The notes beneath the pieces are model-generated. The model had not been told where the DNA came from. It ran no database searches and saw nothing but the letters and a program-made list of their open reading frames with translations. A stretch of 64,000 bases of DNA from Marinobacter pelagius (lineage in GTDB: Bacteria > Pseudomonadota > Gammaproteobacteria > Pseudomonadales > Oleiphilaceae). Shown here piece after piece: positions 34,734-49,351 of this stretch. The stretch covers positions 1 to 64,000 of the forward strand of contig NZ_QNRO01000005.1 in the NCBI RefSeq assembly GCF_003315345.1. Direction: 5' to 3'. The position numbers and the translations under genes were made by a program. Position 1 is the first letter of the stretch; every line of letters begins with the position of its first letter.

Positions 34734-34773
34734 CTGTAAGCGCGCGAGCGCTGTTTCCGTGAAGGAGCCAATC

Positions 34774-35601
34774 ATGAGCGAACTGTTTTACGACGCCGCC
34801 CCCAATGCCACCCGGGTGGCTCCGGAGCGACCCGGTCCGCGACACTATCCGGCCAAACCCCGGGAAGTGATCCTGTTCGGGACCTGTGTGGTGGATCTGT
34901 TCTTTCCGGAAGCAGGCCTGGATGCCATCCGCCTGTTGGAACGCGAGGGCGTCCGGGTACATTTCCCGGAAGGGCAGAGCTGTTGCGGCCAGCCGGCGTG
35001 GACCTCCGGCTATGCGGCCGAGGCGAGGGAAGTGGCCCGTGCGCAGCTGGCCATTCTCGATGCCGACATGCCGGTGGTGGTGCCCTCGGGCTCCTGCGCC
35101 GGCATGTTCCGCCAGCATTACCGGGAACTGTTCGCCGATGAGCCGGACACCCTGAAACGGGTTGAGTCGCTGGCCGAGCGTACCTTCGAGCTGACCGAGT
35201 TCCTGCTCAACGTCTGCCAGGTTGAGTGGCAGGATCTGGGTGAACCCACCCGGATTGCCCTGCACACCTCCTGTTCCGCCCGCCGTGAGATGAACACCCA
35301 CCTCCATGCCCGGGAACTGCTGGGCAAGCTATCCAATGTGGAGCGGGTGGACCATGACCACGAGAGCGAATGCTGTGGCTTTGGCGGAACCTTTTCGGTA
35401 AGGATGCCGGAAGTCTCCGGCGCCATGGTAATGGACAAGACGCAATCCCTGATGGCTTGCGGAGCCGACGAAATGGTTACCGCCGACGGCGGCTGCCTGA
35501 TGAACATCAACGGTTCCCTCGACAAACAGCAGCAGACTTTCCGGGGCCGGCACCTGGCCAGTTTCCTTTGGGAGCGCGTGAGCGGGGAGGGCAAGGTATG
35601 A
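34774..35601 (+). CDS. lutA: lactate utilisation Fe-S protein LutA/LldE
   Basis: A 275-residue cysteine-rich subunit of the LutABC (LldEFG) L-lactate dehydrogenase complex. It has two CCG-type cluster-binding domains: SCCGQPAWTSG (about residues 69-79) and ECCGFGGTFSV in the second half. ATG at 34774 follows AAGGAG. It is 40 bases after lldP and its stop overlaps the start of lutB. Cytoplasmic electron transfer from lactate to quinone is the family role. Confidence 0.93.
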   Translation: MSELFYDAAPNATRVAPERPGPRHYPAKPREVILFGTCVVDLFFPEAGLDAIRLLEREGVRVHFPEGQSCCGQPAWTSGYAAEAREVARAQLAILDADMPVVVPSGSCAGMFRQHYRELFADEPDTLKRVESLAERTFELTEFLLNVCQVEWQDLGEPTRIALHTSCSARREMNTHLHARELLGKLSNVERVDHDHESECCGFGGTFSVRMPEVSGAMVMDKTQSLMACGADEMVTADGGCLMNINGSLDKQQQTFRGRHLASFLWERVSGEGKV

Positions 35602-37043
35602 GCCAGCGAATTCCTGTTACCGAACTGACCGGCGGTTTCCGGGACCGGGCGGAAATTGCGCTGGCGGACGGTCAGCTTCGGACCAACTTCCGCACCGCCA
35701 TGGACTCGCTGATGAAAAAGCGGGCCGACGCCTTCCCCGATGAGGAGGAGCGCGAAGGCCTGCGGGAGCTGGGCAACCGGACCAAGGCCCGGGCCCTGTC
35801 CCGACTGCCGGACCTGCTCGAGCAGCTGGAAGCAAAGCTGACCGACAACGGCGTGAAGGTGCACTGGGCCGAAACCACCGAACAGGCCAACGAGATCGTC
35901 CATGGCATCATCCGGGCTCGCCAGGGTTCCCGGGTGGTCAAGGGCAAGTCCATGGTCAGCGAGGAAATGGAGATGAACGACTACCTCGCCGAGCGCGGGG
36001 TAGAGTGCCTGGAGTCGGATATGGGTGAGTACATCGTCCAGCTCGACGGTGAGAAACCCTCCCACATCATCATGCCGGCGATCCACAAGAACCGTCGCCA
36101 GGTGTCGAAGCTGTTCCACGACAAGCTGGGGGTTGAGGAGACCGACGACGTCAACGAGCTGATCCAGATCGGCCGTCGCACCCTTCGCCGCAAGTTCATG
36201 GAGGCGGATGTCGGGGTTTCCGGTGTGAACTTCGCCATTGCTGAGACCGGCACCCTGCTGCTGGTGGAGAACGAGGGCAACGGTCGGATGAGTACCACCG
36301 CGCCACCGGTGCACATTGCTGTAACTGGTCTCGAGAAGGTGGTGGAAAACCTGCGGGACGTGGTGCCGCTGCTCTCCCTGCTGACCCGCTCGGCCCTGGG
36401 GCAACCGATCACCACCTATGTGAATATGATCTCCGGCCCGCGCAAAGCCGACGAGTTGGACGGCCCGGAGGAGGTGCACCTGGTGCTGCTGGACAACGGC
36501 CGCAGCGGTGCTTTTGCCGATGCCCAGATGCGCCAGACCCTCAACTGCATCCGCTGCGGCGCCTGTATGAATCACTGCCCGGTGTACACCCGGGTGGGTG
36601 GCCACACCTACGGCGAGGTCTACCCGGGGCCGATCGGCAAGATTGTGACGCCGCATATGGTCGGCCTGCACCAGGTGCCAGACCATCCCAGCGCCTCCTC
36701 CCTTTGTGGGGCCTGTGGTGACGTGTGCCCGGTGAAGATCCCGATCCCGGAACTGCTTCAGCGCCTGCGCCAGGAGAATGTGAAAAGTCCGGCGGAAGGG
36801 GCGAAGGTGAAAGATGGGGGCGCCAAGTATTCCCGGAAGGAACGTCTGGTCTGGCGGTTCTGGCGGACCCTCAATAGCAGCCCGGTGCTCTACCGCCTGT
36901 TCCTCTGGGGGGCCACCCGGTTCCGCAAACTGACACCGAAAAATGTCGGTCCCTGGACCGAAAACCACACCGCGCCGGTCCCGGCGAAACGTTCCCTGCA
37001 CGATCTGGCCAGGGAGCACCTGGCCCGTAACGGAGGGCAATGA
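35598..37043 (+). CDS. lutB: lactate utilisation iron-sulfur protein LutB/LldF
   Basis: A 481-residue protein with an N-terminal LUD domain and two 4Fe-4S motifs near the C-terminus: CIRCGACMNHCP and CGACGDVCPVKIP. The start overlaps the lutA stop (ATGA). The EVYPGPIGK segment between the two motifs is strongly conserved in LutB. It carries electrons between the lactate-oxidising unit and the respiratory chain. A much longer frame extends upstream inside lutA and is not used. Confidence 0.94.
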   Translation: MSQRIPVTELTGGFRDRAEIALADGQLRTNFRTAMDSLMKKRADAFPDEEEREGLRELGNRTKARALSRLPDLLEQLEAKLTDNGVKVHWAETTEQANEIVHGIIRARQGSRVVKGKSMVSEEMEMNDYLAERGVECLESDMGEYIVQLDGEKPSHIIMPAIHKNRRQVSKLFHDKLGVEETDDVNELIQIGRRTLRRKFMEADVGVSGVNFAIAETGTLLLVENEGNGRMSTTAPPVHIAVTGLEKVVENLRDVVPLLSLLTRSALGQPITTYVNMISGPRKADELDGPEEVHLVLLDNGRSGAFADAQMRQTLNCIRCGACMNHCPVYTRVGGHTYGEVYPGPIGKIVTPHMVGLHQVPDHPSASSLCGACGDVCPVKIPIPELLQRLRQENVKSPAEGAKVKDGGAKYSRKERLVWRFWRTLNSSPVLYRLFLWGATRFRKLTPKNVGPWTENHTAPVPAKRSLHDLAREHLARNGGQ

Positions 37044-37044
37044 G

Positions 37045-37716
37045 ATGAGCGCCCGCAGTAATATCCTGAACAAGCTTCGCTCCGGTCTGGCCGGCTCCAT
37101 TCCGCGCCCGGACGACTTCGACGAGCGCCTGGTAACCGAACCCTGGCAGTACGCGCCGGAGGACCGGATCATGCGGCTGCGCAATCTGATGGAGGCGGTG
37201 CATACCGAGATCCATCAGGTCAGCAGCGACAACTGGCCGGAAAAAGTGGCCGCGATCCTGGCCAAGCGGGACCTCGGCAATCTGCTCCATGCCCCGGCAA
37301 CCGACCATGGCCAGCAACTCGCGGAATACTTGCAGCAGTCAGACTCGTCCGTGCAACTGCTGGCGTACGACCGACCGGTGGAGGAATGGAAAGAGGAACT
37401 GTTCTGGGAAGTGGACGCGAGCATTACCGGCACCGTTGGTGCCATTGCTGCCACCGGCTCGCTGGTGCTCTGGCCGGACCGGCACGAGCCGAGGCTGATG
37501 AGCCTGCTGCCGCCGTTGCACATCGCCCTGCTCAGGGCCAGCGAGATCGAGGATAACCTGTACGCCATGATGCAGCGCCAGAACTGGTCGGCGGGCTTGC
37601 CCACCAACCTGTTGCTGGTGTCCGGCCCGTCCAAGACCGCGGATATCGAGCAGGTCCTGGCCTATGGTGCCCATGGGCCGAAGGAGCTGGTGGTCCTCAT
37701 ACTTGAGGATGCCTGA
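37045..37716 (+). CDS. lutC: lactate utilisation protein LutC/LldG
   Basis: A 223-residue LUD-domain protein, third subunit of the LutABC system. It begins MSARSNILNKLRSG and includes the conserved TGTVGAIAATGSLVL region and GPSKTADIEQVLAYGAHGPKEL near the end, which mark the LutC/YkgG family. ATG at 37045 follows GGAGGG and comes one base after the lutB stop. No separate lldD or dld dehydrogenase gene follows; a convergent LysR gene ends 31 bases on. Confidence 0.93.
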   Translation: MSARSNILNKLRSGLAGSIPRPDDFDERLVTEPWQYAPEDRIMRLRNLMEAVHTEIHQVSSDNWPEKVAAILAKRDLGNLLHAPATDHGQQLAEYLQQSDSSVQLLAYDRPVEEWKEELFWEVDASITGTVGAIAATGSLVLWPDRHEPRLMSLLPPLHIALLRASEIEDNLYAMMQRQNWSAGLPTNLLLVSGPSKTADIEQVLAYGAHGPKELVVLILEDA

Positions 37717-37746: not shown

Positions 37747-38634
37747 TCATGACATATCCAGGCCAGCCAGGCTTGTCAGTATCCGTTCTTCCAGGGCCTG
37801 GGCCGGCGGCGACAGAGAACGATGGGCCGGCTTGATAATGCCGATCTGCCGTACCAGCCTGGGTTCACTCAGGGGTATAAAACAGAGCTTGTCACTATCT
37901 ACGGGGAAGGCTAGTCGCGGCAGTGTTGTAATCCCACTTCCCGCCTCGAGCATGGCAAGCAGTGAAATCATGTTGGAAATGAAGAAGTCGTTATTTTCGA
38001 CCAGGCTGGCCGCCGCCGTATTTTCCAGAAGCCGGGAGGTACCGTTGGCAATGAATCGCTCCCGGGCCAGTTCTGTCCATTTCAGACTTTTACGGTTCGC
38101 CAGCGGGTGATCCCGTCGCATGACTACACCCACCTTGTCCTCGAATAGTGGGGCAAAACTCAGGCGTTCGTCTTCCACCCAGACGCTGCTGATGCCCAGG
38201 TCCACCTCGCCACTGGCCACCAGGCGGCAGACAAATTCTGCATTCTCGTCGTGAAGGTTGATGTTGATGTCCGGATACTGGCTGACAAACCCGGCCAGGA
38301 ATTCCGGCATCAGCCGACTGGCGACAGACGGAACCGTCGCCAGGGTCACCCGACCCTGATGACCGCCGGCCACCTGCTGTAATTCGCTCGCCAATCGATC
38401 GTGCTGTTTGACCAGATCCCGGAATCTTGGCAAACAGTATTCGCCAAAGGGCGTGAGCTGGGCTTTGTGGGTTTTTTCGAAAAATGGCTGGCCGAGCCGT
38501 TCTTCCAGGTCCCGGATCGCCATGGAGAGAGCCGGTTGACTGCGATACAACTTGCGGGCTGCGCCCTGAACACTGCCTTCTTCCCATACAGCCAGGACAT
38601 AGCGTAGCGGCTGGATTTTCAACTCGATCGACAC
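37747..38634 (-). CDS. LysR family transcriptional regulator
   Basis: A 295-residue LysR-type regulator starting at GTG. The helix-turn-helix spans about residues 18-45 (VQGAARKLYRSQPALSMAIRDLE; SQPALSMAI recognition region). A typical effector domain follows (GRVTLATVPSVASRLMPEFL, EVDLGISS). It diverges from the aldehyde dehydrogenase operon with 126 bases between starts, and a T-N11-A palindrome lies there. It most likely activates the six-gene catabolic operon in response to the substrate or an intermediate. The effector is unknown. Confidence 0.92.
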   Translation of the reverse strand: MSIELKIQPLRYVLAVWEEGSVQGAARKLYRSQPALSMAIRDLEERLGQPFFEKTHKAQLTPFGEYCLPRFRDLVKQHDRLASELQQVAGGHQGRVTLATVPSVASRLMPEFLAGFVSQYPDININLHDENAEFVCRLVASGEVDLGISSVWVEDERLSFAPLFEDKVGVVMRRDHPLANRKSLKWTELARERFIANGTSRLLENTAAASLVENNDFFISNMISLLAMLEAGSGITTLPRLAFPVDSDKLCFIPLSEPRLVRQIGIIKPAHRSLSPPAQALEERILTSLAGLDMS

Positions 38635-38668
38635 GCTAACTCCCTCAAAAACTTTGATTTCCCAAAAG

Positions 38669-38685
38669 TATAAGATCTTCTTATA
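38669..38685. promoter_or_regulatory. LysR-type palindromic box
   Basis: TATAAGATCTTCTTATA, a perfect 6-bp dyad around five bases that contains the T-N11-A motif of LysR regulators (ATAAG-N5-CTTAT). It lies between the divergent LysR gene (start 38634) and the aldehyde dehydrogenase gene (start 38761), the expected place for the regulator to bind. Confidence 0.72.
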
Positions 38686-38760
38686 AAAATCACGAAATTT
38701 TTGATTATCCTTATTAATGCTCAGGGTCTACTCTGTGGAAACATCTTGAGGAGGAACCCT

Positions 38761-40203
38761 ATGTCACAGTCACACGCACTCTACATCGGCGGAGAGTGGG
38801 TCGCAGGCGCCAACGGAGCGCTGCCGAATCAGAATCCGTCAGATCTCAGCGACATCATCGGTCACTACGATCAGGCCAGCACCGATCAGGTAAAGCAAGC
38901 GATCACCGCGGCCAGGGAGGGGCAGAAGGTATGGGCCGAGACCGGGCTGGAAGCGAGATACAGCGTACTGATGGCGATTGGTGATGAGCTGATTGCCCGC
39001 AAGGATGAGCTGGGTGAGTTGTTGTCGAGGGAAGAAGGCAAGCCTCTGGCCGAGGGCAAGGGAGAGGTTTACCGTTCCGGCCAGTTCTTCCACTACTACG
39101 CGGCGGAAGTGCTGCGGCAGATTGATGACAGGGTAGCGTCAGTGCGTCCCGGGATTGAAATCGAGACGCGCCGTGAGCCCCTGGGCGTGATTGGCGTGAT
39201 TAGTCCCTGGAATTTCCCTATGGCCACTGCCGTCTGGAAGATTGCGCCGGCTTTGGCTTTCGGCAACGCGGTGGTGTTCAAGCCGGCGAACCTGGTGCCG
39301 GCCAGCGCCTGGGCATTGACGGAGATTATCAGTCGGCAGGACCTGCCGGCGGGAACCTTCAACCTGGTGACCGGAAGCGGCCGTGAAGCAGGCGAAGCCC
39401 TCATCACCAGTCCCGAGGTTCAGGCGATTACCTTCACCGGATCGCTTGATGTTGGCCGTCGCGTGGCATCGGCCACAGCCGCCAATCTGGTGAAATGCCA
39501 ACTCGAGATGGGCTCGAAAAATGCACTGATCGTGCTCGAGGACGCAGACCTCGATCTTGCAGTTGAAGCGGCTTTCGCCGGTGCCTACTCGGGCTCAGGC
39601 CAGAAGTGCACAGCGTCATCCCGACTGATCGTTATGGACGCTGTACATGACGAATTCGTGGACAAACTGACTGCCAGACTGGCCAGCGCCAAGGTTGGCC
39701 CGGCTCTGTCAGAGAATACGGTGATCGGGCCCATTGCCAGCAAGACCCAGCTGGAGGCCAATCAGCGTTGGGTAAACGTTGCCCTGGAAGAGGGCGCAAA
39801 AATGGCGTTCGGTGGAGACCACGTTAACGCCGAAACCGACGGTTACTACATGCAACCGGTGCTGTTCACGGACACCACTAATGACATGAGCATCAACCGT
39901 GACGAAGTTTTCGGTCCGGTGGCGTGTGTCATACGGGTGCCGGATTATGAGGCCGCGCTGGCCACTCTGAACGATACCAACTATGGGCTCACCGCTGGTC
40001 TGATCACCGGCTCCCTGAAACGCGCGACCGATTTCAAGGCCCGTGCCGAGACAGGCTGTGTCATGGTCAACCTGGCCACTGCCGGCACTGACTACCATGT
40101 GCCTTTCGGCGGTCGAAAGGATTCCAGCTTCGGTCCCCGTGAACAGGGACAGTACGCGCGGGAGTTCTACACCGTGGTGAAGACCTGTTACACGAAGGCC
40201 TGA
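38761..40203 (+). CDS. NAD(P)-dependent aldehyde dehydrogenase, KGSADH-like
   Basis: A 480-residue aldehyde dehydrogenase; ATG at 38761 follows TGAGGAGGAA, and the upstream in-frame extension is rejected. The catalytic Cys is in SGSGQKCTASSR, the general-base Glu in CQLEMGSKN, and the cofactor motif is FTGSLDVGR. The N-terminus GALPNQNPSDLSDIIG resembles alpha-ketoglutarate-semialdehyde dehydrogenases, so a five-carbon dicarboxylic semialdehyde is a reasonable substrate. First gene of the LysR-linked operon; the M19-like gene starts 11 bases downstream. Confidence 0.9.
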   Translation: MSQSHALYIGGEWVAGANGALPNQNPSDLSDIIGHYDQASTDQVKQAITAAREGQKVWAETGLEARYSVLMAIGDELIARKDELGELLSREEGKPLAEGKGEVYRSGQFFHYYAAEVLRQIDDRVASVRPGIEIETRREPLGVIGVISPWNFPMATAVWKIAPALAFGNAVVFKPANLVPASAWALTEIISRQDLPAGTFNLVTGSGREAGEALITSPEVQAITFTGSLDVGRRVASATAANLVKCQLEMGSKNALIVLEDADLDLAVEAAFAGAYSGSGQKCTASSRLIVMDAVHDEFVDKLTARLASAKVGPALSENTVIGPIASKTQLEANQRWVNVALEEGAKMAFGGDHVNAETDGYYMQPVLFTDTTNDMSINRDEVFGPVACVIRVPDYEAALATLNDTNYGLTAGLITGSLKRATDFKARAETGCVMVNLATAGTDYHVPFGGRKDSSFGPREQGQYAREFYTVVKTCYTKA

Positions 40204-40214
40204 GGAATCGCACC

Positions 40215-41216
40215 ATGTCGAAGTCTGTATTAACCATTGATGGTCTCCAGTACTCCAACTGGTCCCGCGGTATCTTTGAACAAATGCGGGAGGGCGGTGT
40301 TGATGCTGTCCATGCCACCCTCGTGTATCACGAGAATTGCCGGGAAACTTTACTGCGGTTTGGCGAGTGGGAGCGTCGCTTCGAGGAGCACAGCGACCTG
40401 ATCATGCCGGTGCGCGCGCCGGACGATATCGAGCTGGCGCGGGAAACCCATCGGGTGGGGGTGTTCTTCGGGGCCCAGAACTGCTCGCCAATCGAGGACG
40501 ATATCGACCTGGTCGCCCTCATGCGCCGGCTCGGGCTTCTGATCATGCAGCTCACCTACAATAACCAGAGTTTACTGGCTTGTGGCTGCTACGAATTGGA
40601 GGACAGCGGAATTACCCGTTTTGGCAAACAGGCAATCCGGGAAATGAACCGGGTCGGCATGCTTATTGATATGTCCCACAGCGGCGAGCGATCCACCCTG
40701 GAGGCCATTGAAATCTCCGAGCGGCCGGTGATCATCTCCCACGCCAACCCGTCAAGTTTTCATCCGGCCAAGCGCAACAAGTCTGATTCTGTGCTCCGTG
40801 CCATCGCACAAAGCGGTGGTATTCTCGGCTTTTCGGTGTATCCGTTTCACCTGAAGAATGGCCCGGACTGCACGCTGGATGATTTCTGCGGCATGGTCGC
40901 CGATACCGCGGAGCTGATGGGCATCGATCACATCGGGATGGGTACCGATCTTTGCCAGGCTCAGCCGGAATCGGTACTGACCTGGATGCGTAACGGGCGT
41001 TGGTCCAAGGCGATGGACTACGGCGAAGGCAGCCAAGCGAACGCCGGGTGGCCATCACCGTTGTCCTGGTTCAGTGATAACCGGCACTTCCCGAACATCA
41101 TTGAGGGCCTGCGCCGAAAGGGATTCAACCATGAAGAAATCGAGAAGATCATGGGCCGAAACTGGCTCCGGCAACTAACCGAGGGCACGCGGCCGGCTGT
41201 TGATACCGCGTTCTGA
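40215..41216 (+). CDS. divergent M19 dipeptidase-like amidohydrolase
   Basis: A 333-residue protein with the M19 (renal/membrane dipeptidase) fold. Retained family residues are His155 in DMSHS, His176 in ISHAN, Arg187 and Asp245 in GMGTDL. Others are lost: the HxD metal motif (DGHND in the family) is DGLQY at residues 9-13, and the bridging Glu of GVEGG corresponds to Gln88 in FGAQNCSP. So it cannot bind two zinc ions in the usual way. It has no signal peptide. Its place between an aldehyde dehydrogenase and a BCCT transporter suggests hydrolysis of an amide or ring intermediate in catabolism rather than peptide cleavage. That role is inference. Confidence 0.85.
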   Translation: MSKSVLTIDGLQYSNWSRGIFEQMREGGVDAVHATLVYHENCRETLLRFGEWERRFEEHSDLIMPVRAPDDIELARETHRVGVFFGAQNCSPIEDDIDLVALMRRLGLLIMQLTYNNQSLLACGCYELEDSGITRFGKQAIREMNRVGMLIDMSHSGERSTLEAIEISERPVIISHANPSSFHPAKRNKSDSVLRAIAQSGGILGFSVYPFHLKNGPDCTLDDFCGMVADTAELMGIDHIGMGTDLCQAQPESVLTWMRNGRWSKAMDYGEGSQANAGWPSPLSWFSDNRHFPNIIEGLRRKGFNHEEIEKIMGRNWLRQLTEGTRPAVDTAF

Positions 41217-41253
41217 AAACCAATCTGTTCAAAAACAACAACAGGTAATCGTC

Positions 41254-42873
41254 ATGACCAACTCAGCCAGCTCCATCGCTATCCCGGAAATCGGCGCCAG
41301 TCGTTTCGGCGACCCGATTGTACTGTTCCTGACCGTCGGCTTTATTCTGCTCTTCCTTGGGCTGTCACTGTATGACATTGAATGGACAGCCAGCCTGATC
41401 AGTGCGGGCTTTGCCTGGACCGCTGCTAATCTGGGCTCCTATTTCCAGCTTCTGCTACTGCTCACCTTTCTGATCGGTATGGGCGTGGCCATATCGCCGG
41501 CGGGTAGCGCAAAAGTCGGGAACCTGGATGCGCCCGAGTTGAGTACCTTCAAGTGGTTGTCGGTAATTATGTGCACCCTGCTGGCGGGCGGCGGGGTTTT
41601 CTTTGCTGCTGGTGAGCCAATCTACCACTTCGTCGTCACGCCGCCGGTGTTCGATACCGAAGCAGCCACAGCGGAGGCGGTTGCCCCGGCTCTTGCCCAG
41701 TCCTTCATGCACTGGGGCTTCCTGGCCTGGGCCATTCTTGGCACTCTTTCCGCCATCGTTCTGGCTCATGCCCATTATGTGAAGGGGCAGCCGCTGAAAC
41801 CAAGGACTCTGCTCTACCCGGTATTTGGTGATCGGATAATGCAGGGATGGTTTGGGGCCTGTGTCGACTCAGCCTGTGTAATCGCGGTAGTCGCGGGAAC
41901 GGTCGGGCCTATCGGTTTTCTGGCTACCCAGGTCAGTTTTGGCTTGCACGATCTGTTCGGGTTTTCTGGAGGGTACGGTACCCAACTGGTCATACTTGGC
42001 GTCCTGGCGGCGGTATATGTGACCTCGGCAATGACGGGCATTCACAGAGGGATTCAGTTACTGAGTCGTCTCAACGTGTTTCTTGCCCTGGCGGTTGCTG
42101 CCGTTATCTTCCTGTTCGGTCCGACGCTGTTTCTCACTAACGCCTTCACCCAGGGGTTTGGTGAATACATTAGTTCCTTCTTTGCCATGGCTACCGTCAC
42201 TTCTGTCACTGCAGAGGGCTGGTGGATGCAGTGGTGGACGGTGTTCTTCTTTGCCTGGTTCCTGGGCTATGGCCCGTTGATGGCGCTTTTTGTAGCGCGT
42301 ATTTCACGGGGGCGGACCATACGGCAGATGATTCTCGCGGTCAGTGTTCTGGCCCCTATTGTCACAACCATCTGGTTCACACTCCTGGGTGGCTCCGGCA
42401 TTTTTTATCAGCTCACTGGAGTGATTGACTTGAGCGAGGCGCTCAACAACTTCCAGTTTGATGTCGCAACGCTCACTGTTGCCCAGGCCTTGCCGGGCGG
42501 AGCAATGATGGCCCTGGCGATCCTCGTGCTGACAACCATTTTCGTGGCAACGACCGGCGACTCGATGAGCTACGCCATTGCCGTGGTCAGTGTGGGCCAT
42601 GATGAGCCGGAACCGATTGTGCGGGCCTTCTGGGGTGTGGCCATGGCGCTCATGGCGGCTGTACTGCTGTACATGGGAGCAGGCCAGATCAGTGCGCTGC
42701 AGCAGTTTATTGTGATAACGGCGATACCCGTGTCACTGATTCTTTTACCCTCGCTGTACATTGGCCCAAAATCGGCCTACGCCATGGCCCGTGAACAGGG
42801 AATTGTCGCTCCCAAGGGCGAAGTGGCACTAGTTGGCGCGACCACCGCCTCGCCTGCGAGTTCAGGAGACTGA
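41254..42873 (+). CDS. BCCT family transporter with altered Trp box
   Basis: A 539-residue inner-membrane symporter with about twelve helices. The start MTNSASSIAIPE (41254) is used because the frame upstream overlaps the previous gene. The family block is WTVFFFAWFLGYGPLM then ARISRGRTIRQM. In BetP-type proteins the same helix reads YWAWWISWSP; here the aromatic cage positions are F, W, F and Y. Helix 4 keeps HWGFLAW. So an aromatic cation-binding site remains but is tuned differently from glycine-betaine carriers. It presumably imports the substrate of the surrounding catabolic operon. Confidence 0.92.
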   Translation: MTNSASSIAIPEIGASRFGDPIVLFLTVGFILLFLGLSLYDIEWTASLISAGFAWTAANLGSYFQLLLLLTFLIGMGVAISPAGSAKVGNLDAPELSTFKWLSVIMCTLLAGGGVFFAAGEPIYHFVVTPPVFDTEAATAEAVAPALAQSFMHWGFLAWAILGTLSAIVLAHAHYVKGQPLKPRTLLYPVFGDRIMQGWFGACVDSACVIAVVAGTVGPIGFLATQVSFGLHDLFGFSGGYGTQLVILGVLAAVYVTSAMTGIHRGIQLLSRLNVFLALAVAAVIFLFGPTLFLTNAFTQGFGEYISSFFAMATVTSVTAEGWWMQWWTVFFFAWFLGYGPLMALFVARISRGRTIRQMILAVSVLAPIVTTIWFTLLGGSGIFYQLTGVIDLSEALNNFQFDVATLTVAQALPGGAMMALAILVLTTIFVATTGDSMSYAIAVVSVGHDEPEPIVRAFWGVAMALMAAVLLYMGAGQISALQQFIVITAIPVSLILLPSLYIGPKSAYAMAREQGIVAPKGEVALVGATTASPASSGD

Positions 42874-42876
42874 AGC

Positions 42877-44607
42877 ATGGCAACTCCCTCACACGTTACC
42901 GAGCAGTTACACCTGCGCCCGTCGGATCAGGTGATGAAACTGGAGCGACTGGGAAGCCTTCACGCCAGCCGACTGAGCTTCTGTCGCAGCCTGGTTCGCC
43001 AGATGGCGCGCGAGGACTGGACAGTCAACACGGACCGTTTTGACCTGGATGCTGACGGCCACGGGGTCGTGATCTACCGGCTGAATACGCCCAACCACAC
43101 CTATCACGGAGTGGTATTCTCCCAGCACCTGGATCCGGCGCGCCGGTCTGACCGGGTGATTGCCGAAGCTTGGGACGTCACTTTTGCCCTGGTAGAAGGA
43201 GAAGTGGAGGCCAGCCTGCTCGACCAGATGGCGGCCAATGTACCGCTTCAGGAGGCTGGTCGTCAGCATCCGAGATTGCTGGTGCTATCGAGAGCCAACA
43301 AGAGCCTCCGAAATTTCAGCCACTTTGTTGAGGCATTGGCCTCCGGGCGCCAGCCGGATCCCGCCTGGTTAACCCGGGTGGGGTACCTGTACCGCACGAC
43401 AGCCGTATACGGCAATGGCAAATTCGGGATCGCGGACTACGCCCGGCTCCAGAAAAACCCGGATTTCAACCGGCCGTTCTCCGCGCAGATGTTTGCCGTG
43501 TACCTGCTTCGCCATTTCTCGGTGCAGCAGGTAGAGCATCTTGCCCAAATGCATTCGCCGGAGCGTGCCGTGACCCTGGCCCCGGCACTTCAGCGTTACC
43601 TGGGTATCGGCAACTCAACCGGTCTTGGGATGGCTCCTTTCCTGATCAATCATCCGCAGCTGATCCAGCAATGGGTATATGGCAGGGAGCGGGCACTGGC
43701 GTATGCCCGCGAACAGTTGCCGGATGACGCCGGCCGTCGGGAGCTGCTGGCGTTATTGAAGCGGGCACATCAGCATTTTTCCGAAACGGTGACGGAAGAC
43801 GCTGAGCAGAGCCTGCGCAACGAGGCCACCGTCGCTTCTATCAAAGCGGTTATGGAGTGGCTGGAAAGAACCCCGGCCACATCCCGTCTCTGGACCGATT
43901 TGCTGGCGTGGGCGGATGAGCAATGCGCACTGGAGGCGCAGGAGCTGATCAACACCTTACTGATCGAGCTATATCCGGACATCATCGATGCTATGGAGAA
44001 TGAGCTGGGTTGTGAGGAAATACTCGAATTACAGCCGGAAATGCGGGCGGCAACCCTGAAAAGCCAGATTGAACGCCGGTTTTCGTGGGCGCTCGACTAC
44101 GATCCCAAGAATCCCGACCACCATTACTGGTTCTGGTACCGGTCCGCCGAAAAGGAGGAACCGCGCCTGGGTGTGCGTGCCGCCGAACCGGGTGCCGAGA
44201 AGGAAATGCTCCTGGCCATAGGGCCGCGTATTTACCGCACACATCAGTTGCTGGATGCGTTTCTCGACCGTTGTCCGGCAGGTTCCGTGGTCGAGTTCCT
44301 GATGGCCCATCCGCGGCAGAAGGAAACGGTAAGGCGCATCCAGACCATGGCAGCTACGCCTTATGGAGAAATTCAGGCCAACCTCTGGCACCGGGACATG
44401 AAACCTATGCACCTGCTTCGAACCAAACTGTCGTTTTTTGGTGCCAGCCGCTTTGACCCCAAATCCGATCGCTGGGTTCGGGTTACGTTGTTTCAGGGGG
44501 CGCCGCTGTTTTGTGAACTGTTCAGCGATCATGGTGCCAACAAGGCACGTCTGGCGGAGCTGGATGACTGGAGTTTTCCCGTGCAACCGGAGTTGGAATC
44601 GCAATGA
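42877..44607 (+). CDS. 576-residue protein of unknown family
   Basis: A 576-residue protein I do not recognise. ATG follows CAGGAGA and comes 3 bases after the BCCT stop; the last 4 bases overlap the DUF3726 gene, so it is firmly inside the operon. No signal peptide or membrane helix is visible. It looks mixed alpha/beta, then mainly helical from about 190. Possible conserved patches are RLNTPNHTYHGVVFS (66-80), YRTTAVYGNGKFG (173-185), DPKNPDHHYWFWYRSAEKEEPR (about 410-431; HHYWFWY core) and NLWHRDMKP near 505. Clusters of His, Trp and Tyr suggest an enzyme. The role could be the first catabolic step, but this is only a contextual guess. Confidence 0.88.
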   Translation: MATPSHVTEQLHLRPSDQVMKLERLGSLHASRLSFCRSLVRQMAREDWTVNTDRFDLDADGHGVVIYRLNTPNHTYHGVVFSQHLDPARRSDRVIAEAWDVTFALVEGEVEASLLDQMAANVPLQEAGRQHPRLLVLSRANKSLRNFSHFVEALASGRQPDPAWLTRVGYLYRTTAVYGNGKFGIADYARLQKNPDFNRPFSAQMFAVYLLRHFSVQQVEHLAQMHSPERAVTLAPALQRYLGIGNSTGLGMAPFLINHPQLIQQWVYGRERALAYAREQLPDDAGRRELLALLKRAHQHFSETVTEDAEQSLRNEATVASIKAVMEWLERTPATSRLWTDLLAWADEQCALEAQELINTLLIELYPDIIDAMENELGCEEILELQPEMRAATLKSQIERRFSWALDYDPKNPDHHYWFWYRSAEKEEPRLGVRAAEPGAEKEMLLAIGPRIYRTHQLLDAFLDRCPAGSVVEFLMAHPRQKETVRRIQTMAATPYGEIQANLWHRDMKPMHLLRTKLSFFGASRFDPKSDRWVRVTLFQGAPLFCELFSDHGANKARLAELDDWSFPVQPELESQ

Positions 44608-45371
44608 AAGTGTCATTTAACGAACTTCAGGGCATCGGTCGAAAAGCCTTTGCCGCGATCGGCTTTGCCGAGGGTGACGCGATAGACGCTTCGGAAATGG
44701 TTGCCTGGCTTGAAGCCCACGGCCTCGGCGGTGCCGAAGCCCTGAAGAAGGGCTTGCGATACATCGTTACCGAAGATCAGAGCACTTCACCAACACTGGT
44801 CTATCAGGACGCCGACTTCAGCGTACTGGATGCCCACAACCATAGCATCCTGGGCAATGCCAGCCTGGCTGTCGAACTCGGCTATGCCCGGGCGCGGTCG
44901 AGGGGATTGTCGATCACCAAGATTCGTCGCTGCCACAACCGTATTCTGATTATCGGCTATCTGTCGCGGCTGGCGCGCCGCGGCATGAACGTCACCGCGT
45001 TCTGGCGCAACGCCCACGACCCTCTGACGGAAGTGGTGGTCGGCTTCAAGGCGGGGCATCCGGTGCCTGAAATCTGTTTCTACAGTCTGGATGATGCGCC
45101 CGATGACACCGAGAGGAACGACGGCATCACCCTGATCATGGCCAATCACGTTGATTTGTTGCCAAGTCTGCGTTCGGACTACGCATTGACCAACTTGATG
45201 TGGCAGACCGAGGAAGACCTGGAACGGCTGAAGGATCGGGCGCTGGTTGAGGGCATGGAGGTGGACGACGAACTCTGGCGCAGCCTCAAATCCCTGGCCG
45301 AGCAACTGTTGGTCGAGGCGACCGATGCTTCACGGGGTGGCGCGGGTGCGGGTACCAATGACAACGACTGA
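44604..45371 (+). CDS. DUF3726 family protein
   Basis: A 255-residue cytoplasmic protein that matches DUF3726 as I remember it: it opens with MKVSFNELQGIGRKAFAAIGFAEG and WLEAHGLGG, with the motif DAHNHSILGNASLAVE (about residues 74-89; the DAHN-N region) further on. No function is known for the family. It overlaps the 576-residue gene by 4 bases and precedes a RidA gene by 13 bases. The constant linkage with an unknown large protein suggests that the two form a complex or catalyse successive steps. Confidence 0.82.
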   Translation: MKVSFNELQGIGRKAFAAIGFAEGDAIDASEMVAWLEAHGLGGAEALKKGLRYIVTEDQSTSPTLVYQDADFSVLDAHNHSILGNASLAVELGYARARSRGLSITKIRRCHNRILIIGYLSRLARRGMNVTAFWRNAHDPLTEVVVGFKAGHPVPEICFYSLDDAPDDTERNDGITLIMANHVDLLPSLRSDYALTNLMWQTEEDLERLKDRALVEGMEVDDELWRSLKSLAEQLLVEATDASRGGAGAGTNDND

Positions 45372-45384
45372 CAGGAAGGCAACA

Positions 45385-45780
45385 GTGACCGAATCCATAA
45401 CGACCACTCCTATTGCAACCGGCTTGCCGCAATCAAAGGCCCCCCTCGAATGGGCCGTGAGTGCGAACGGCATCCTTTTCACCGCCCAGATTCCGATCGA
45501 CGCCAGCGGCCAGGTGGTTGCAGGCGGAATAGAAGCGCAGGCCCGGCAAACCATGGAGAATCTGAAACACACACTTGAGTGCGCAGGGGGCGGGATGGCC
45601 AGCCTGGCGCAGGCCCTGATCTATGTGACGGATCGGGCCCACCTGCCGGTGGTGAACCAGGTGTACGGTGAATACGTTACGCAACCATACCCGAACCGCG
45701 CGGCAATCATCGTCTCCGGATTTGCCCGAGAAGAGATGTTGGTCGAGATCGTGGCTTATGCCGCGACACCTCATCCTTGA
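45385..45780 (+). CDS. RidA family enamine/imine deaminase-like protein
   Basis: A 131-residue RidA/YjgF protein. I chose the GTG at 45385, which follows AGGAAGG at a good distance and starts after the DUF3726 stop; an ATG at 45358 would overlap that gene. The family Arg is in YPNRAAIIV (about residue 105) and the C-terminal EIVAYA is typical. RidA enzymes hydrolyse reactive enamines/imines to keto acids. In this operon it may clear such an intermediate formed during breakdown of the imported nitrogen compound. Last gene of the cluster. Confidence 0.87.
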   Translation: MTESITTTPIATGLPQSKAPLEWAVSANGILFTAQIPIDASGQVVAGGIEAQARQTMENLKHTLECAGGGMASLAQALIYVTDRAHLPVVNQVYGEYVTQPYPNRAAIIVSGFAREEMLVEIVAYAATPHP

Positions 45781-45801: not shown

Positions 45802-46539
45802 TTACTTGACCCCGAACCCGCGCTTGTTGAGAAATTCCTTCATGTGCGGCCGAAGCTTGGTGGTGAACAGCGGCTTCAGCTCCTTGGACCAGTTGGAATC
45901 CTTGTTGCCACCGGTGCGGTCCAGGTAATACTGGTGCATGGTGTCGTCGAATGCGGCGACCTGCTCCTCGTCCTTGCTGTCGTCGTAGTAGTCTTCCTTG
46001 AGAATGGTCTCCAGCGACAGCCGGGGCTTCACTTCCGGATCCTGGTCCGGGTAGCCGAGGCTCATGCCGAACACCGGGTAGACGTGCTCCGGCAGTTTCA
46101 GAATCTCGGCCACCTGGGCCGGATCATTCCGGATCCCGCCCACGTAACACAGCCCCAAGCCTTCGGATTCGGCGGCAACCGCCACGTTCTGGGCCATCAG
46201 CGCGGCATCAACACTGGCCACCACCAGCTGCTCGGTCATACCCCGGACCACGTCGGCGCCAGCTCGCTCCGCGGCTTCGGTGGAGCGTTTCATGTCGGCG
46301 CAGAACACCAGGAAATCTGAAGCCTCCACCACATGGGCCTGGCCACCGGCCAGTTCGGAAATCTTGCGGCGGTTCTCCGGATTGACCACGTGGATGATGG
46401 AGTAGGCCTGAACGTGGTTGGAGGTGGCGGCGCACTGGCCGGCACGAACCAGCTCTTCCAGCAGGTCGCGGGGGATCTTCTGGTCCTTGAACTTGCGGAT
46501 GGAGCGGTGGGATTTGATGAGTTCAATGGTCGGATTCAT
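45802..46539 (-). CDS. NfsA-like FMN nitroreductase
   Basis: A 245-residue flavin reductase of the oxygen-insensitive nitroreductase (NfsA/FRP) type. Start MNPTIELIKSHRSIRKFKDQ; the frame start 21 residues earlier is not family-like. Motifs are the FMN-contacting SHRSIRKF and the conserved LMAQNVAVAAESEGLGLCYVGGIRN. It uses NADPH to reduce nitro or quinone compounds, or serves as a flavin reductase. It is monocistronic, divergent from an MFS permease and convergent with the RidA operon. Confidence 0.9.
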   Translation of the reverse strand: MNPTIELIKSHRSIRKFKDQKIPRDLLEELVRAGQCAATSNHVQAYSIIHVVNPENRRKISELAGGQAHVVEASDFLVFCADMKRSTEAAERAGADVVRGMTEQLVVASVDAALMAQNVAVAAESEGLGLCYVGGIRNDPAQVAEILKLPEHVYPVFGMSLGYPDQDPEVKPRLSLETILKEDYYDDSKDEEQVAAFDDTMHQYYLDRTGGNKDSNWSKELKPLFTTKLRPHMKEFLNKRGFGVK

Positions 46540-46650
46540 GGGTTCTCTCTGATACATGGCTTTCAGATAGCATACGAAACAGTTCACAATAATCCGTTCC
46601 ATTGCCGTAAGGCAAACGACTGAGAATTCCCTTCCCTGGAGATTACGCTC

Positions 46651-47859
46651 TTGTCTGCTGACGAGACCAAACGAAATTTCGTGGCCGTCTGTGTATCGCT
46701 GACGTTCTGCTTTGTCGTCTACTCGATGCTGCTGGTGACGGTTCCGGTCTACAGCCTTGAGTTGGGCGCGACACCGCTGATGCTGGGTGTGGTTCTGAGT
46801 TCCCAGTATCTACTCCCGTTCCTGCTGGCCATTCCGCTCGGCGGCGTGGTCACTCGGCATGGCGGTCGGGTGACCCTGGTGGCGGGGGCGCTGGTCATGG
46901 TGGTGGGGCTGGTGCTGATGCAGGTGCTGCCGGGTTTCTATGGCCTGATTGCCGGCCAACTGCTGGTCGGGCTGGCCCATCTGCAGATGGTGCTCTCGGC
47001 GCAGACCGTGATCTCGTCACTGGCAACGGGGCCCAGGTTGGAAGGTTATTTCGGATGGTATGCGACCTGGCTGTCCGGCGGCCAGGTGATTGGGCCGCTG
47101 ATTGCCGGCGGCTGGATCGAAGTAGCAGGAGGCGTTGGCAATCTTTTCCTGGTGATGGCCGCCATCGCCCTGGCAGGTGGAATCACGGGCCTGCTGCTCA
47201 CCGGCGAGGCGAACCGGGGCGAGCGGGTTGCCCGATCGCAAACCGGGTTCCGGGCCCAGGCCAGGCTGATGCGGGAGAATAGCGGGGTGCAGATTTCCGT
47301 GCTGATCACAGTTGCCGGCATGTTCGCATTGGGTGTCTATGGCAGCTACCTGCCGGTGTACCTCGACAGCCTTGAAATGGGCGCGGCATTGATCGGGGTG
47401 CTGGTCAGTATTCGGGCGGGCGTGTCCATGCTCGCACGCCCCTTCATTCCGAGGATCATAGCTGCTGTGGGCGGTCGGGAAAATGCGACTTATTTGTCCC
47501 TCGGCACGCTTGCGGTTGGCCTGGGTTGCCTGGGATTTGCCGGGAATGCGCCCCTCGTGGCGCTGTTGTCGGTTCTGGTGGGAGTGGGCTCTGGTCTGTG
47601 TCAGCCCCTGTCGATGGTGGTGCTGGCGGAAAGTGTCGAGAAGGCCCAGCGGGCGGGGGCGCTTGGCATGCGGCTGATGGCGAACCGGGCGATCCACTTC
47701 CTGGCCCCGTTGCTGTTCGGTGCGATCCTGGCTATTAGTGGTTTTGGCGTGTCGTTTGCGCTGTCGGGGATTGTGGTGGCGGTGGTTGCCGGAGCTCTAT
47801 ATCGCTTTGGGTTTCCAACTCCGGGGGCATCGGCACGGCAGGAATCGAATCGTAAGTGA
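46651..47859 (+). CDS. MFS transporter
   Basis: A 402-residue major facilitator protein with about twelve helices; the GGVVTRHGGR loop between helices 2 and 3 is the usual MFS signature A region. The start is TTG at 46651, preceded by CTGGAGA, giving MSADETKRNF before the first helix. Charged inter-domain loop residues lie near 190-215. Drug or metabolite export is the common activity of this subgroup, but the substrate is unknown. A terminator follows it. Confidence 0.87.
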   Translation: MSADETKRNFVAVCVSLTFCFVVYSMLLVTVPVYSLELGATPLMLGVVLSSQYLLPFLLAIPLGGVVTRHGGRVTLVAGALVMVVGLVLMQVLPGFYGLIAGQLLVGLAHLQMVLSAQTVISSLATGPRLEGYFGWYATWLSGGQVIGPLIAGGWIEVAGGVGNLFLVMAAIALAGGITGLLLTGEANRGERVARSQTGFRAQARLMRENSGVQISVLITVAGMFALGVYGSYLPVYLDSLEMGAALIGVLVSIRAGVSMLARPFIPRIIAAVGGRENATYLSLGTLAVGLGCLGFAGNAPLVALLSVLVGVGSGLCQPLSMVVLAESVEKAQRAGALGMRLMANRAIHFLAPLLFGAILAISGFGVSFALSGIVVAVVAGALYRFGFPTPGASARQESNRK

Positions 47860-47908
47860 TCGTGGGCTGCACCGTAATGAAAACCGGCCCGCTTTATTGC
47901 ACCAAAAC

Positions 47909-47950
47909 AAGGCGAAAAGGTCTCGTCAGAGGTCTCTTCGCCTTTCTTTT
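47909..47950 (+). terminator. probable terminator after MFS gene
   Basis: AAGGCGAA (47909-47916) pairs with TTCGCCTT (47937-47944) around a 20-base loop and is followed by TCTTTTT. The loop is long, so it is weaker than a classical terminator. It separates the MFS gene from the cytosine operon. Confidence 0.65.
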
Positions 47951-47965
47951 TGTGCAGATTGCACA
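47951..47965. promoter_or_regulatory. perfect dyad upstream of the codB promoter
   Basis: TGTGCAGATTGCACA, a perfect 6-bp inverted repeat with a 3-base spacer, centred about 80 bases before the likely transcription start. That distance fits an activator site for a sigma-54 promoter. The half sites do not have the NtrC orientation, so the protein binding here is unknown. Confidence 0.5.
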
Positions 47966-48011
47966 TGCAGGGTCCTCTTTTTGTTAGCGCGTGGCTGAAT
48001 TAAACGGCATA

Positions 48012-48027
48012 TGGCATAGACGTTGCC
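48012..48027 (+). promoter_or_regulatory. sigma-54 promoter of the codB operon
   Basis: TGGCATAGACGTTGCC matches the -24/-12 consensus (TGGCA and TTGC) with exactly 10 bases between GG and GC. Transcription would begin near 48038, 24 bases before the codB ATG at 48062. Control by a sigma-54 activator suggests that cytosine is used as a nitrogen source. Confidence 0.75.
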
Positions 48028-48061
48028 ATGTCTTCTGGTGAGTTTTCACCACAGAGAGACA

Positions 48062-49351
48062 ATGGCAATGACTTCACAAGTATCTCCCCAGGAACAGGAC
48101 TATCCGCTTAGCCCGGTTCCCATGGACCAGCGTCGCAGTATCTGGTCCATGGGTCTGGTTCTGCTTGGCTTCACGTTCTTCACTGCCACCATGTGGGCTG
48201 GTGGCAGTATCGGTGTCGCATTCGATTTTTCCACCATGCTGCTGGTGCTGGCAGTGGGTAATCTCCTGCTGGGCACCTACGCGGCGATACTCGGCTATAT
48301 CGCCGCCAAGACCGGTCTGAACACGGCGCTGATGAGCCGCTTCACCTTTGGCGAGCTGGGCAGCAAGCTGTCCGACTTCATTCTCGGGTTTACCCAGATC
48401 GGCTGGTACGCCTGGGGCACGGCCACCATGGCCATCCTGCTGGTCAAGCTGACCGGCCTGCCGGAAAGCTGGACCACCCCGCTGATGGTGGTGTTCGGAT
48501 TTGGCTTCTGTATCACCGCCTTCATTGGCTACAAGGGGCTGGAAATGCTGTCCCGCTTTGCGGTGCCGGCCATGATCATTCTGGTGGCGGTCAGCATGAC
48601 CATTGCCACCTCCGATGCCGGAGGTCTCACCGGGCTGCTGGCCATTACCCCGGCCGATGACATGACGGTGGCGGCCGCGATCACTCTGGTGTTTGGCACC
48701 TTCGTGAGTGGCGGCACCCAGGCCACCAACTGGACCCGCTTTGCCAAATCCGGAAAGACTGCCGTGATTGCGACCCTGGCTGCCTTTTTCCTCGGTAACG
48801 GTCTGATGACCCTGATCGGCGCCTTCGGCGCGCTGGTCTACCAGCAGGCAGACATCGTCGACATCATGGTGGCCCAGGGCCTGGCCACGCTCGGCATCCT
48901 CATGCTGTTCCTGAATCTCTGGACGACGCAGGATAATACCGTATACAACTTCGCGGTCGCCGGCTGCAACATGTTGCGTACCCGTCGACGTAAGTCGGTG
49001 ACCATTGGTGGCGCAGCCATCGGTACGGCACTGGCCGTCATGGGGATGTACGAGTGGCTGATCCCGTTCCTGGTGCTGCTGGGAACCTTCATCCCGCCCA
49101 TCGGTGGCGTCATCATGGCCAGCTACTTTATCGGCTACAAGCGTCAGTACCCGGCCCTTGAGGAGGCGACCCTGCCGGCGTTCAACGTGCCGGGACTGGC
49201 AGCCTATGCCATCGGCTCCGCGGCGGCCTATACCTCACCCTGGATTGCGCCGATTGTCGGGGTACTGGTTGCGGCGGCGAGCTATGGGCTGGTACTGCTG
49301 GTCAGCGACGCGGTGCGTGAGCGCCGGGCCCAGGTCCTGGGAGTCGCGTAA
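48062..49351 (+). CDS. codB: cytosine permease
   Basis: A 429-residue NCS1-family permease with about twelve helices. It resembles CodB throughout: PMDQRRSIWSMGLVLLGFTFFTATMW at the start, AGGSIGVAFDFSTMLLV, TGLNTALMSRFTFGELGS and NLWTTQDNTVYNFAVAG. The ATG at 48062 is used, with a second ATG two codons on. It imports cytosine or a related pyrimidine by proton symport. It is followed directly by a pucR-like gene and codA, all behind a sigma-54 promoter. Confidence 0.93.
   Translation: MAMTSQVSPQEQDYPLSPVPMDQRRSIWSMGLVLLGFTFFTATMWAGGSIGVAFDFSTMLLVLAVGNLLLGTYAAILGYIAAKTGLNTALMSRFTFGELGSKLSDFILGFTQIGWYAWGTATMAILLVKLTGLPESWTTPLMVVFGFGFCITAFIGYKGLEMLSRFAVPAMIILVAVSMTIATSDAGGLTGLLAITPADDMTVAAAITLVFGTFVSGGTQATNWTRFAKSGKTAVIATLAAFFLGNGLMTLIGAFGALVYQQADIVDIMVAQGLATLGILMLFLNLWTTQDNTVYNFAVAGCNMLRTRRRKSVTIGGAAIGTALAVMGMYEWLIPFLVLLGTFIPPIGGVIMASYFIGYKRQYPALEEATLPAFNVPGLAAYAIGSAAAYTSPWIAPIVGVLVAAASYGLVLLVSDAVRERRAQVLGVA

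Follow-up and report, generated by a model that had tools for sequence, protein, structure and literature searches.

The window analyzed here is the whole 64,000-nucleotide stretch of Marinobacter pelagius DNA on contig NZ_QNRO01000005.1, from a genome of 4.13 Mb. Positions 37747–45780 hold a divergent LysR-type regulator gene opposite six co-directional genes, which encode an aldehyde dehydrogenase (ALDH), an M19-like amidohydrolase, a BCCT-family transporter, a 576-residue protein called X576 here, a DUF3726 protein and a RidA-family protein (Table 1). Judged from sequence comparison, this cluster is a real, widely conserved catabolic unit. We propose that it is likely to be a LysR-controlled operon with which the cell takes up and degrades homarine (N-methylpicolinate), in a form whose last enzyme is RidA. 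Homarine itself is most probably the substrate.

The conservation of the unit is one support for this proposal. Relatives of X576 are numerous: at least 7999 were found among the 8000 candidates scored, and at least 570 were confirmed in a scan of named genomes. The best 80 loci of that scan, all gammaproteobacterial, were taken with flanks of up to 10 kb; they were selected by the presence of X576 and include many from Halomonas, Pseudomonas and Marinobacter, so that they are not independent, and a gene was counted by its best match anywhere in the locus. Among the 62 loci of at least 19 kb, ALDH, M19 and DUF3726 are present in all 62, LysR in 61, BCCT in 59 and RidA in 52. The preliminary description of this DNA had staked its pathway on the gene order recurring elsewhere, and it does recur: the order of the window is reproduced exactly in 36 of these 62 loci, and 12 more differ only in having RidA in front. 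In an even sample of Pseudomonadota, X576 is present in 29 of 398 genomes. A broader set of 32 X576 regions from genomes of this kind, sharing at least two genomes with the 80 loci, contains M19 in 30 cases, DUF3726 in 25 and an ALDH more than 60% identical in only 17. Therefore, the X576 family as a whole is wider than the operon of the window.

Outside the Gammaproteobacteria, plasmids of Phaeobacter, Ruegeria, Shinella, Aminobacter and Mesorhizobium carry LysR, ALDH, M19, X576 and DUF3726 together with an Ldh-family reductase at the place of RidA. The transporter of the cluster varies, being BCCT, a ProU-type ABC transporter or another ABC transporter, with ABC genes in the Shinella, Aminobacter and Mesorhizobium clusters. 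X576 is also found in 138 of 197 genomes of a SAR11-sized order (101 of 149 at 90% completeness); the reference genome of this order, of 1.2 Mb and with a rhodopsin, itself lacks X576. The assignment to SAR11 is presumptive, from sizes of 0.7–1.5 Mb and 29–36% GC in eight regions and the rhodopsin of the reference genome. M19, X576 and DUF3726 stand together in all eight of these SAR11-sized regions (L192–L199). A SoxA match of 41–46% lies about 5 kb away in five of the eight, and a Rieske oxygenase gene lies nearby in five. A divergent triad of X576, DUF3726-like and M19 genes, about 32% identical, occurs on pSymB of Sinorhizobium meliloti (L089:9965-13411) and in Variovorax (L091:9941-13437), with IclR regulators, other transporters and no ALDH annotated alongside; this triad probably serves another substrate.

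The strongest clue to the substrate is found beside the cluster in relatives. In P. inhibens DSM 17395 and Ruegeria TM1040, the cluster is followed by LysR and one more regulator gene and then by four genes for "sarcosine oxidase" subunits. Genes for this heterotetramer also lie near the cluster in Shinella, Natronospirillum, Luminiphilus, a Woeseiaceae bin and Halieaceae bins. The heterotetramer family comprises both sarcosine oxidase and N-methylglutamate dehydrogenase (MGD). As MGD references we used copies from Aminobacter, R. etli and Acinetobacter that lie no more than 7 kb from glutamate synthase-like or glutamine amidotransferase-like genes and type III glutamate–ammonia ligase genes; the sarcosine oxidase reference was a Thalassospira copy beside glyA, purU and an FAD dehydrogenase gene. 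The large subunits of Natronospirillum, Luminiphilus and two Halieaceae are 57–61% identical to the Acinetobacter MGD reference and 35–36% identical to the oxidase. Those of Phaeobacter and Ruegeria are 55–57% identical to the alphaproteobacterial MGDs, compared with 45–46% to the oxidase. For Shinella, the values are 73% with R. etli, 55% with Aminobacter and 45% with the oxidase. In a 24-row tree of large subunits, which leaves out L171 and L162, the gammaproteobacterial copies group with Acinetobacter (100/100) and the alphaproteobacterial copies with Aminobacter and R. etli (100/99). Both groups exclude the oxidase of Thalassospira, although it lies on the alphaproteobacterial MGD side of the midpoint root. 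Sarcosine oxidase is thus disfavored as the identity of the neighbor by both identity and tree. Because the cluster-linked large subunits side with MGD, the pathway served by the cluster probably delivers N-methylglutamate, at least in the MGD-linked organisms.

In the X576 tree, the MGD-linked gammaproteobacterial lineages are scattered over three positions between RidA lineages. One of them, Natronospirillum, which lacks RidA, is sister to the window's Marinobacter group. Its X576, ALDH, M19 and BCCT proteins are 76–84% identical to those of the window, whose X576 is 89% identical to a protein of Marinobacter sp. CP1. Given this sister relationship, the substrate is probably the same.

Genes for an NAD-type formate dehydrogenase provide a second association. 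They stand beside the cluster in 10 of the 80 loci, nine of them in the Halomonas group (downstream, same strand) and one in an Ectothiorhodospiraceae bin (upstream). The alpha subunit scores above the NCBIfam cut-off in the two cases scanned, and two NuoF-like partners scanned fall below the NuoF cut-offs. The window genome has a formate dehydrogenase alpha subunit, 82% identical, on another contig. Homarine, N-methylpyridinium-2-carboxylate, has six carbons plus the N-methyl group, and N-methylglutamate has five plus the N-methyl group. The missing carbon would therefore be formate, if ring C6 leaves as an N-formyl group. Conversion of homarine to N-methylglutamate and formate would fit the cluster because relatives link it to both MGD-type and formate dehydrogenase genes. 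Moreover, ALDH and an amidohydrolase are the enzymes that an N-formyl/aldehyde route from homarine needs. On a Pseudosulfitobacter plasmid (L096:3312-13477), MGD-type SoxBDAG genes lie near hutG (N-formylglutamate deformylase), a formimidoylglutamate deiminase gene and purU, which suggests another route into N-methyl or N-formyl glutamate chemistry.

We propose that homarine would enter through BCCT and that X576, together with DUF3726, would attack the pyridinium ring. The ring carbon adjoining the nitrogen (C6) would become an N-formyl group, and C5 would become an aldehyde for ALDH to oxidize. The M19-like enzyme would remove the formyl group as formate, a release that we favor by a small degree. 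The preliminary description had assigned the genes to the families named above, with an altered M19-like enzyme and two proteins of unknown function, and the Pfam scan and an alignment of the M19 site agree with it. The importer belongs to the BCCT family (PF02028, 475 bits). For ALDH, the best NCBIfam model is alpha-ketoglutaric semialdehyde dehydrogenase (NF042993), with 484 bits against a cut-off of 770; by this score, therefore, it is not a member of that equivalog.

The M19-like protein has an unusual active site. True M19 dipeptidases possess a binuclear metal site with an H-x-D motif and a bridging Glu. Aligned to the solved dipeptidase 5lx4, the protein lacks H-x-D, and in an alignment of 84 relatives and variants the bridging Glu is replaced by Gln88 in 84 of 84 rows, so that the site is not that of an M19 membrane dipeptidase. 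H155, H176 and D245 are kept in all 84 rows. The loss of H-x-D and the bridging Glu, with two His and an Asp retained, suggests a single-metal hydrolase rather than a dipeptidase. The closest solved relative is an "amidohydrolase" (PDB ID: 2i5g; E 3.9e-63), which, in the parts aligned, likewise reads D-G-L where dipeptidases have H-x-D and Q-N where they have E-G. We take 2i5g to be PA5396 of P. aeruginosa, from a region for dimethylglycine catabolism, and in that neighborhood it differs from the cluster.

X576 and DUF3726 should, by elimination, attack the ring. Scans of Pfam and NCBIfam with X576 gave scattered weak matches only, and a PDB hmmsearch with 58 rows (set A2, chosen from 240 listed proteins and the 80 loci) gave nothing better than E 0.16. 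No cofactor motif was recognized in its sequence. In a 93-row alignment, 98 positions reach at least 97% conservation within the ingroup; many of them are Arg and Gly, and 59 are unchanged even in the divergent proteins of Sinorhizobium and Variovorax. A role in defense, raised by the UniRef name "Zorya protein" on one relative (P0154), was rejected, as PADLOC gave no match at E up to 1. In Mesorhizobium, the X576 region and DUF3726 are annotated as one protein. The DUF3726 protein belongs to PF12525 (43.9 bits against a gathering cut-off of 22.1), and an overlapping Ldh_2 match (E 2.8e-7, 30.4 bits against a cut-off of 38.8) covers the N-terminal 136 of 333 positions. The reading of DUF3726 as a true Ldh_2 enzyme is not supported, given this partial, sub-cut-off match and a comparison of the two profiles, which gave a probability of 12%. 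The literature searched held no mention of DUF3726.

The fate of the nitrogen may differ between the two forms of the cluster. Searches for MGD and Ldh covered the genomes of 49 of the 80 gammaproteobacterial X576 loci. MGD of the Acinetobacter type occurs in 10 of these 49 genomes, at 56–70% identity. When RidA in the locus is set against MGD in the genome, 34 genomes have RidA only, 5 have MGD only, 5 have both and 5 have neither. MGD lies within 15 kb of the cluster in 4 of the 10 RidA-less genomes and in none of the 39 RidA-bearing ones (Fisher p 0.001, a value that ignores kinship). The five RidA-less genomes with MGD have an Ldh-family gene on the contig of MGD. Such a gene stands beside the cluster itself in Natronospirillum, Luminiphilus, the Woeseiaceae bin and one Halieaceae bin (L048). 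RidA and Ldh are together in none of the 80 loci (Ldh in 2 only) and in none of the 32 regions (RidA in 9, Ldh in 7). In Enterovibrio, which has a RidA-type cluster, another contig carries an Ldh-family gene immediately next to MGD, folD and purU (L235:6956-14830), so that Ldh and MGD occur together even away from the cluster.

From this distribution and the X576 tree, we infer two exits from one front end. In the Rhodobacterales and some Gammaproteobacteria, the Ldh-family reductase would form N-methylglutamate, which MGD would demethylate to glutamate. In organisms of the window's type, hydrolysis of the N-methyl imine or enamine by RidA would yield methylamine and either 2-oxoglutarate or its semialdehyde. 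This RidA exit is a tentative suggestion, to which we give somewhat less than an even chance. The protein is of the RidA family (PF01042, 74 bits) and holds P-N-R-A-A, whose Arg would be the one conserved near the C-terminus in this family. In the window genome, the best match to the MGD large subunit is 21 bits over 55 residues, with no match at E 1e-50 to a 9-row profile. Neither a full-length Ldh_2 enzyme nor a clear GmaS orthologue (best 40% over 260 residues) was found there. When the open reading frames of at least 100 residues in the 80 loci were clustered to look for a further gene conserved beside RidA-type loci, only two of the 45 largest groups were identified outside the core, both formate dehydrogenase subunits; the choice of frames was crude, with some wrong-frame groups, and a demethylase could be missed. 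A bolder version, which we regard as unlikely to hold in full, is that X576 and DUF3726 form a new enzyme class that opens or dearomatizes an N-methylpyridinium ring with no recognized oxygenase, flavin or molybdenum domain, and that RidA provides a second, N-methylglutamate-free exit releasing methylamine. RidA-type bacteria would then gain the carbon of homarine and pass its nitrogen on as methylamine.

Several observations weigh against the homarine assignment and the two exits. The window's own genome lacks MGD, so that the strongest substrate clue is borrowed from relatives. The MGD references themselves are named from their neighbors only, and the gammaproteobacterial type is 30–37% identical to the alphaproteobacterial MGDs, as distant as it is to the oxidase, its naming depending on the single Acinetobacter reference. 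LysR resembles the proline-binding PsrA, though far below the cut-off (its nearest NCBIfam model, 145 bits against 540), and the likeness of DUF3726 to Ldh_2 is weak and limited to the N-terminal part. In the eight SAR11-sized regions, ALDH lies outside the unit (a single 36% match, on the other strand), a point against a gene set that is constant in those genomes. RidA proteins form a common family with housekeeping roles. An unlinked MGD occurs in five of the 39 RidA-bearing genomes, and MGD of the reference type is missing from five of the 10 that lack RidA. Ldh-family matches (24–53%) occur in 29 of the 49 genomes, many of them RidA-bearing and with the match unlinked, and RidA, Ldh and Sox genes are all unseen in 15 of the 32 regions. 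The alternation of RidA and Ldh largely tracks Gamma- and Alphaproteobacteria, leaving few independent contrasts (three places, perhaps four). The two-exit scheme is a poor fit for the Ectothiorhodospiraceae bin (L059) and for several loci of Halomonas and Marinobacter in which neither marker is present.

Part of this evidence could be read differently. If the substrate were a proline-type N-methyl compound, such as N-methylproline from proline betaine, ring opening would yield N-methylglutamate semialdehyde, which ALDH would convert to N-methylglutamate. MGD would be fed by this route too, the PsrA-like regulator would be in keeping with it, and an MttB-type gene and an FAD oxidoreductase gene do occur near the Mesorhizobium locus and in 2 of the 32 regions (L212, L223). 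However, neither M19 nor X576/DUF3726, the most constant parts of the cluster, would be needed, the Pfam scan finds no demethylase in the window's cluster, and the formate dehydrogenase linkage would be left unexplained. We consider this substrate very improbable. It is also improbable, in our judgment, that RidA-type and MGD-linked clusters have different N-heterocyclic betaines as substrates and share the front-end chemistry alone. MGD matches are absent from the window genome, nine other Marinobacter, two Psychrobacter, one Photobacterium and one Vibrio among the 49 searched, RidA stands where MGD-linked clusters have Ldh, and the divergent Sinorhizobium/Variovorax triad shows that the module can be re-used. 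Nevertheless, the four proteins compared in Natronospirillum are too close to those of the window, with which it nests, to make this attractive.

The neighbors might even be coincidental, the operon serving salvage or osmolyte turnover unrelated to homarine or N-methylglutamate. MGD within 15 kb in just 4 of the 49 genomes searched, and a formate dehydrogenase linkage found almost only in Halomonas-group loci (9 of 10), would be compatible with this. The MGD-type linkage, however, recurs in Phaeobacter, Ruegeria and Shinella and at the three gammaproteobacterial places of the tree, with two MGD types, and we find coincidence hardly credible. Demethylation of carnitine, choline or glycine betaine was also considered and rejected: the cluster contains no Rieske, DgcA-type or MttB-type gene, and such genes near some relatives are inconstant.

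Homarine is thus the preferred substrate among those named in the preliminary description, which had envisaged import and opening of a quaternary or N-heterocyclic osmolyte ending in a dicarboxylic acid. That class of pathway, for an N-methylated heterocyclic osmolyte, has held up, and homarine has gained from the MGD and formate dehydrogenase linkage. Carnitine, proline betaine and trigonelline are not favored because no gene for a Rieske oxygenase, an MttB protein, a betaine demethylase or a two-component oxygenase came up when the cluster and the three genes downstream were scanned with Pfam. The pathway had also been called undescribed, which is probably no longer true. PMC13390433 states that Mgd takes part in homarine catabolism, and the homarine pathway cited there was published in 2026 (Ferrer-Gonzalez et al. 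2026, Nat Microbiol 11:1531, doi 10.1038/s41564-026-02313-7). The cluster resembles that pathway in that its relatives are linked to MGD-type genes, which that work reportedly implicates. It differs in that the window genome carries RidA and lacks both MGD and a full Ldh_2 enzyme; participation of MGD is seen only in relatives with the cluster, where MgdABCD is a neighbor. The genes of the cluster probably correspond to those of the 2026 pathway. The abstract of that work reportedly describes an operon homABCDER with N-methylglutamate and glutamate as products, found in Rhodobacterales, SAR11 and SAR116. The one regulator and five enzymes of Ruegeria TM1040 (LysR; ALDH, M19, X576, DUF3726 and Ldh) presumably correspond to this name, a match by count only. 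The occurrence of X576 in Phaeobacter, Ruegeria TM1040 and SAR11-sized genomes agrees with the Rhodobacterales and SAR11 part of that reported distribution. Among the papers listed by full-text searches, no other account of such genes was found, and the MGD-less RidA form is undescribed in the literature searched.

Another known system is the trigonelline pathway, in which, according to PMC8269262, TgnA/TgnB open an N-methylpyridinium carboxylate. In contrast, no two-component FMN oxygenase is present among the cluster's seven genes and the three downstream genes (Pfam scan), and X576/DUF3726 would take the ring-attacking step. In the later steps of the trigonelline route, an aldehyde is oxidized and an N-formyl-type amide is hydrolyzed, and the chemistry proposed for the cluster is alike.

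Homarine is an abundant compound of plankton. PMC8269262 reports that it makes up as much as 3% of surface-ocean particulate carbon, notes weak growth of R. pomeroyi DSS-3 on it and states that, as of 2021, no homarine degradation pathway had been characterized; a published correction says that concentrations had been overstated. If our proposal is true, the newly reported pathway would extend to halophilic and marine Gammaproteobacteria, in a form without MGD. Whether nitrogen is kept as glutamate or released as methylamine matters for nitrogen and methylated-amine cycling, and the nitrogen fate of homarine consumers might be readable from a few genes, namely RidA or Ldh/MGD. The proposed ring-opening protein, X576, would be one whose sequence matches no known family.

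The layout of the cluster is given in Table 1. From ALDH to RidA, the intergenic gaps are, in order, 11, 37, 3, −4 and 13 bp, with X576 and DUF3726 overlapping by 4 bp; an alternative start of RidA at the ATG at 45358 is possible. In an alignment of the window and 10 relatives, the box between LysR and ALDH is among the best-kept stretches, with the variants ATAAG/ATAAA and CTTAT/CTTAC. The coordinates, gaps and conserved box bear out the arrangement first described, of six genes in one direction with small gaps or overlaps, under a divergent LysR with a box.

Table 1. Features of the cluster in the window, with the number of loci (out of the 80 X576 loci) in which each gene has a match.
Feature	Position	Strand	Family or context	Loci
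LysR-type regulator, GTG start	37747..38634	-	PF00126, PF03466	72
ATAAG-N5-CTTAT box, probable LysR site	38670..38684		between LysR and ALDH; kept in alignment of window and 10 relatives	
ALDH, proposed semialdehyde-to-carboxylate step	38761..40203	+	PF00171	75
M19-like amidohydrolase, reduced metal site, proposed N-deformylase	40215..41216	+	PF01244	78
BCCT-family betaine-type importer	41254..42873	+	PF02028	71
X576, 576 residues, proposed ring-attacking component with DUF3726	42877..44607	+	no Pfam or NCBIfam family	
DUF3726 protein, proposed X576 partner	44604..45371	+	PF12525	80
RidA-family imine/enamine hydrolase	45385..45780	+	PF01042	60

Directly upstream, positions 34759–37716 hold a lactate-utilization-like set (LutABC/LldEFG type, judged by eye from the translations), which shows no sign of belonging to the cluster. 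Downstream, positions 45802–49351 encode a nitroreductase (above the PRK10765 cut-off), an MFS transporter and a cytosine permease (above the PRK11017 cut-off).

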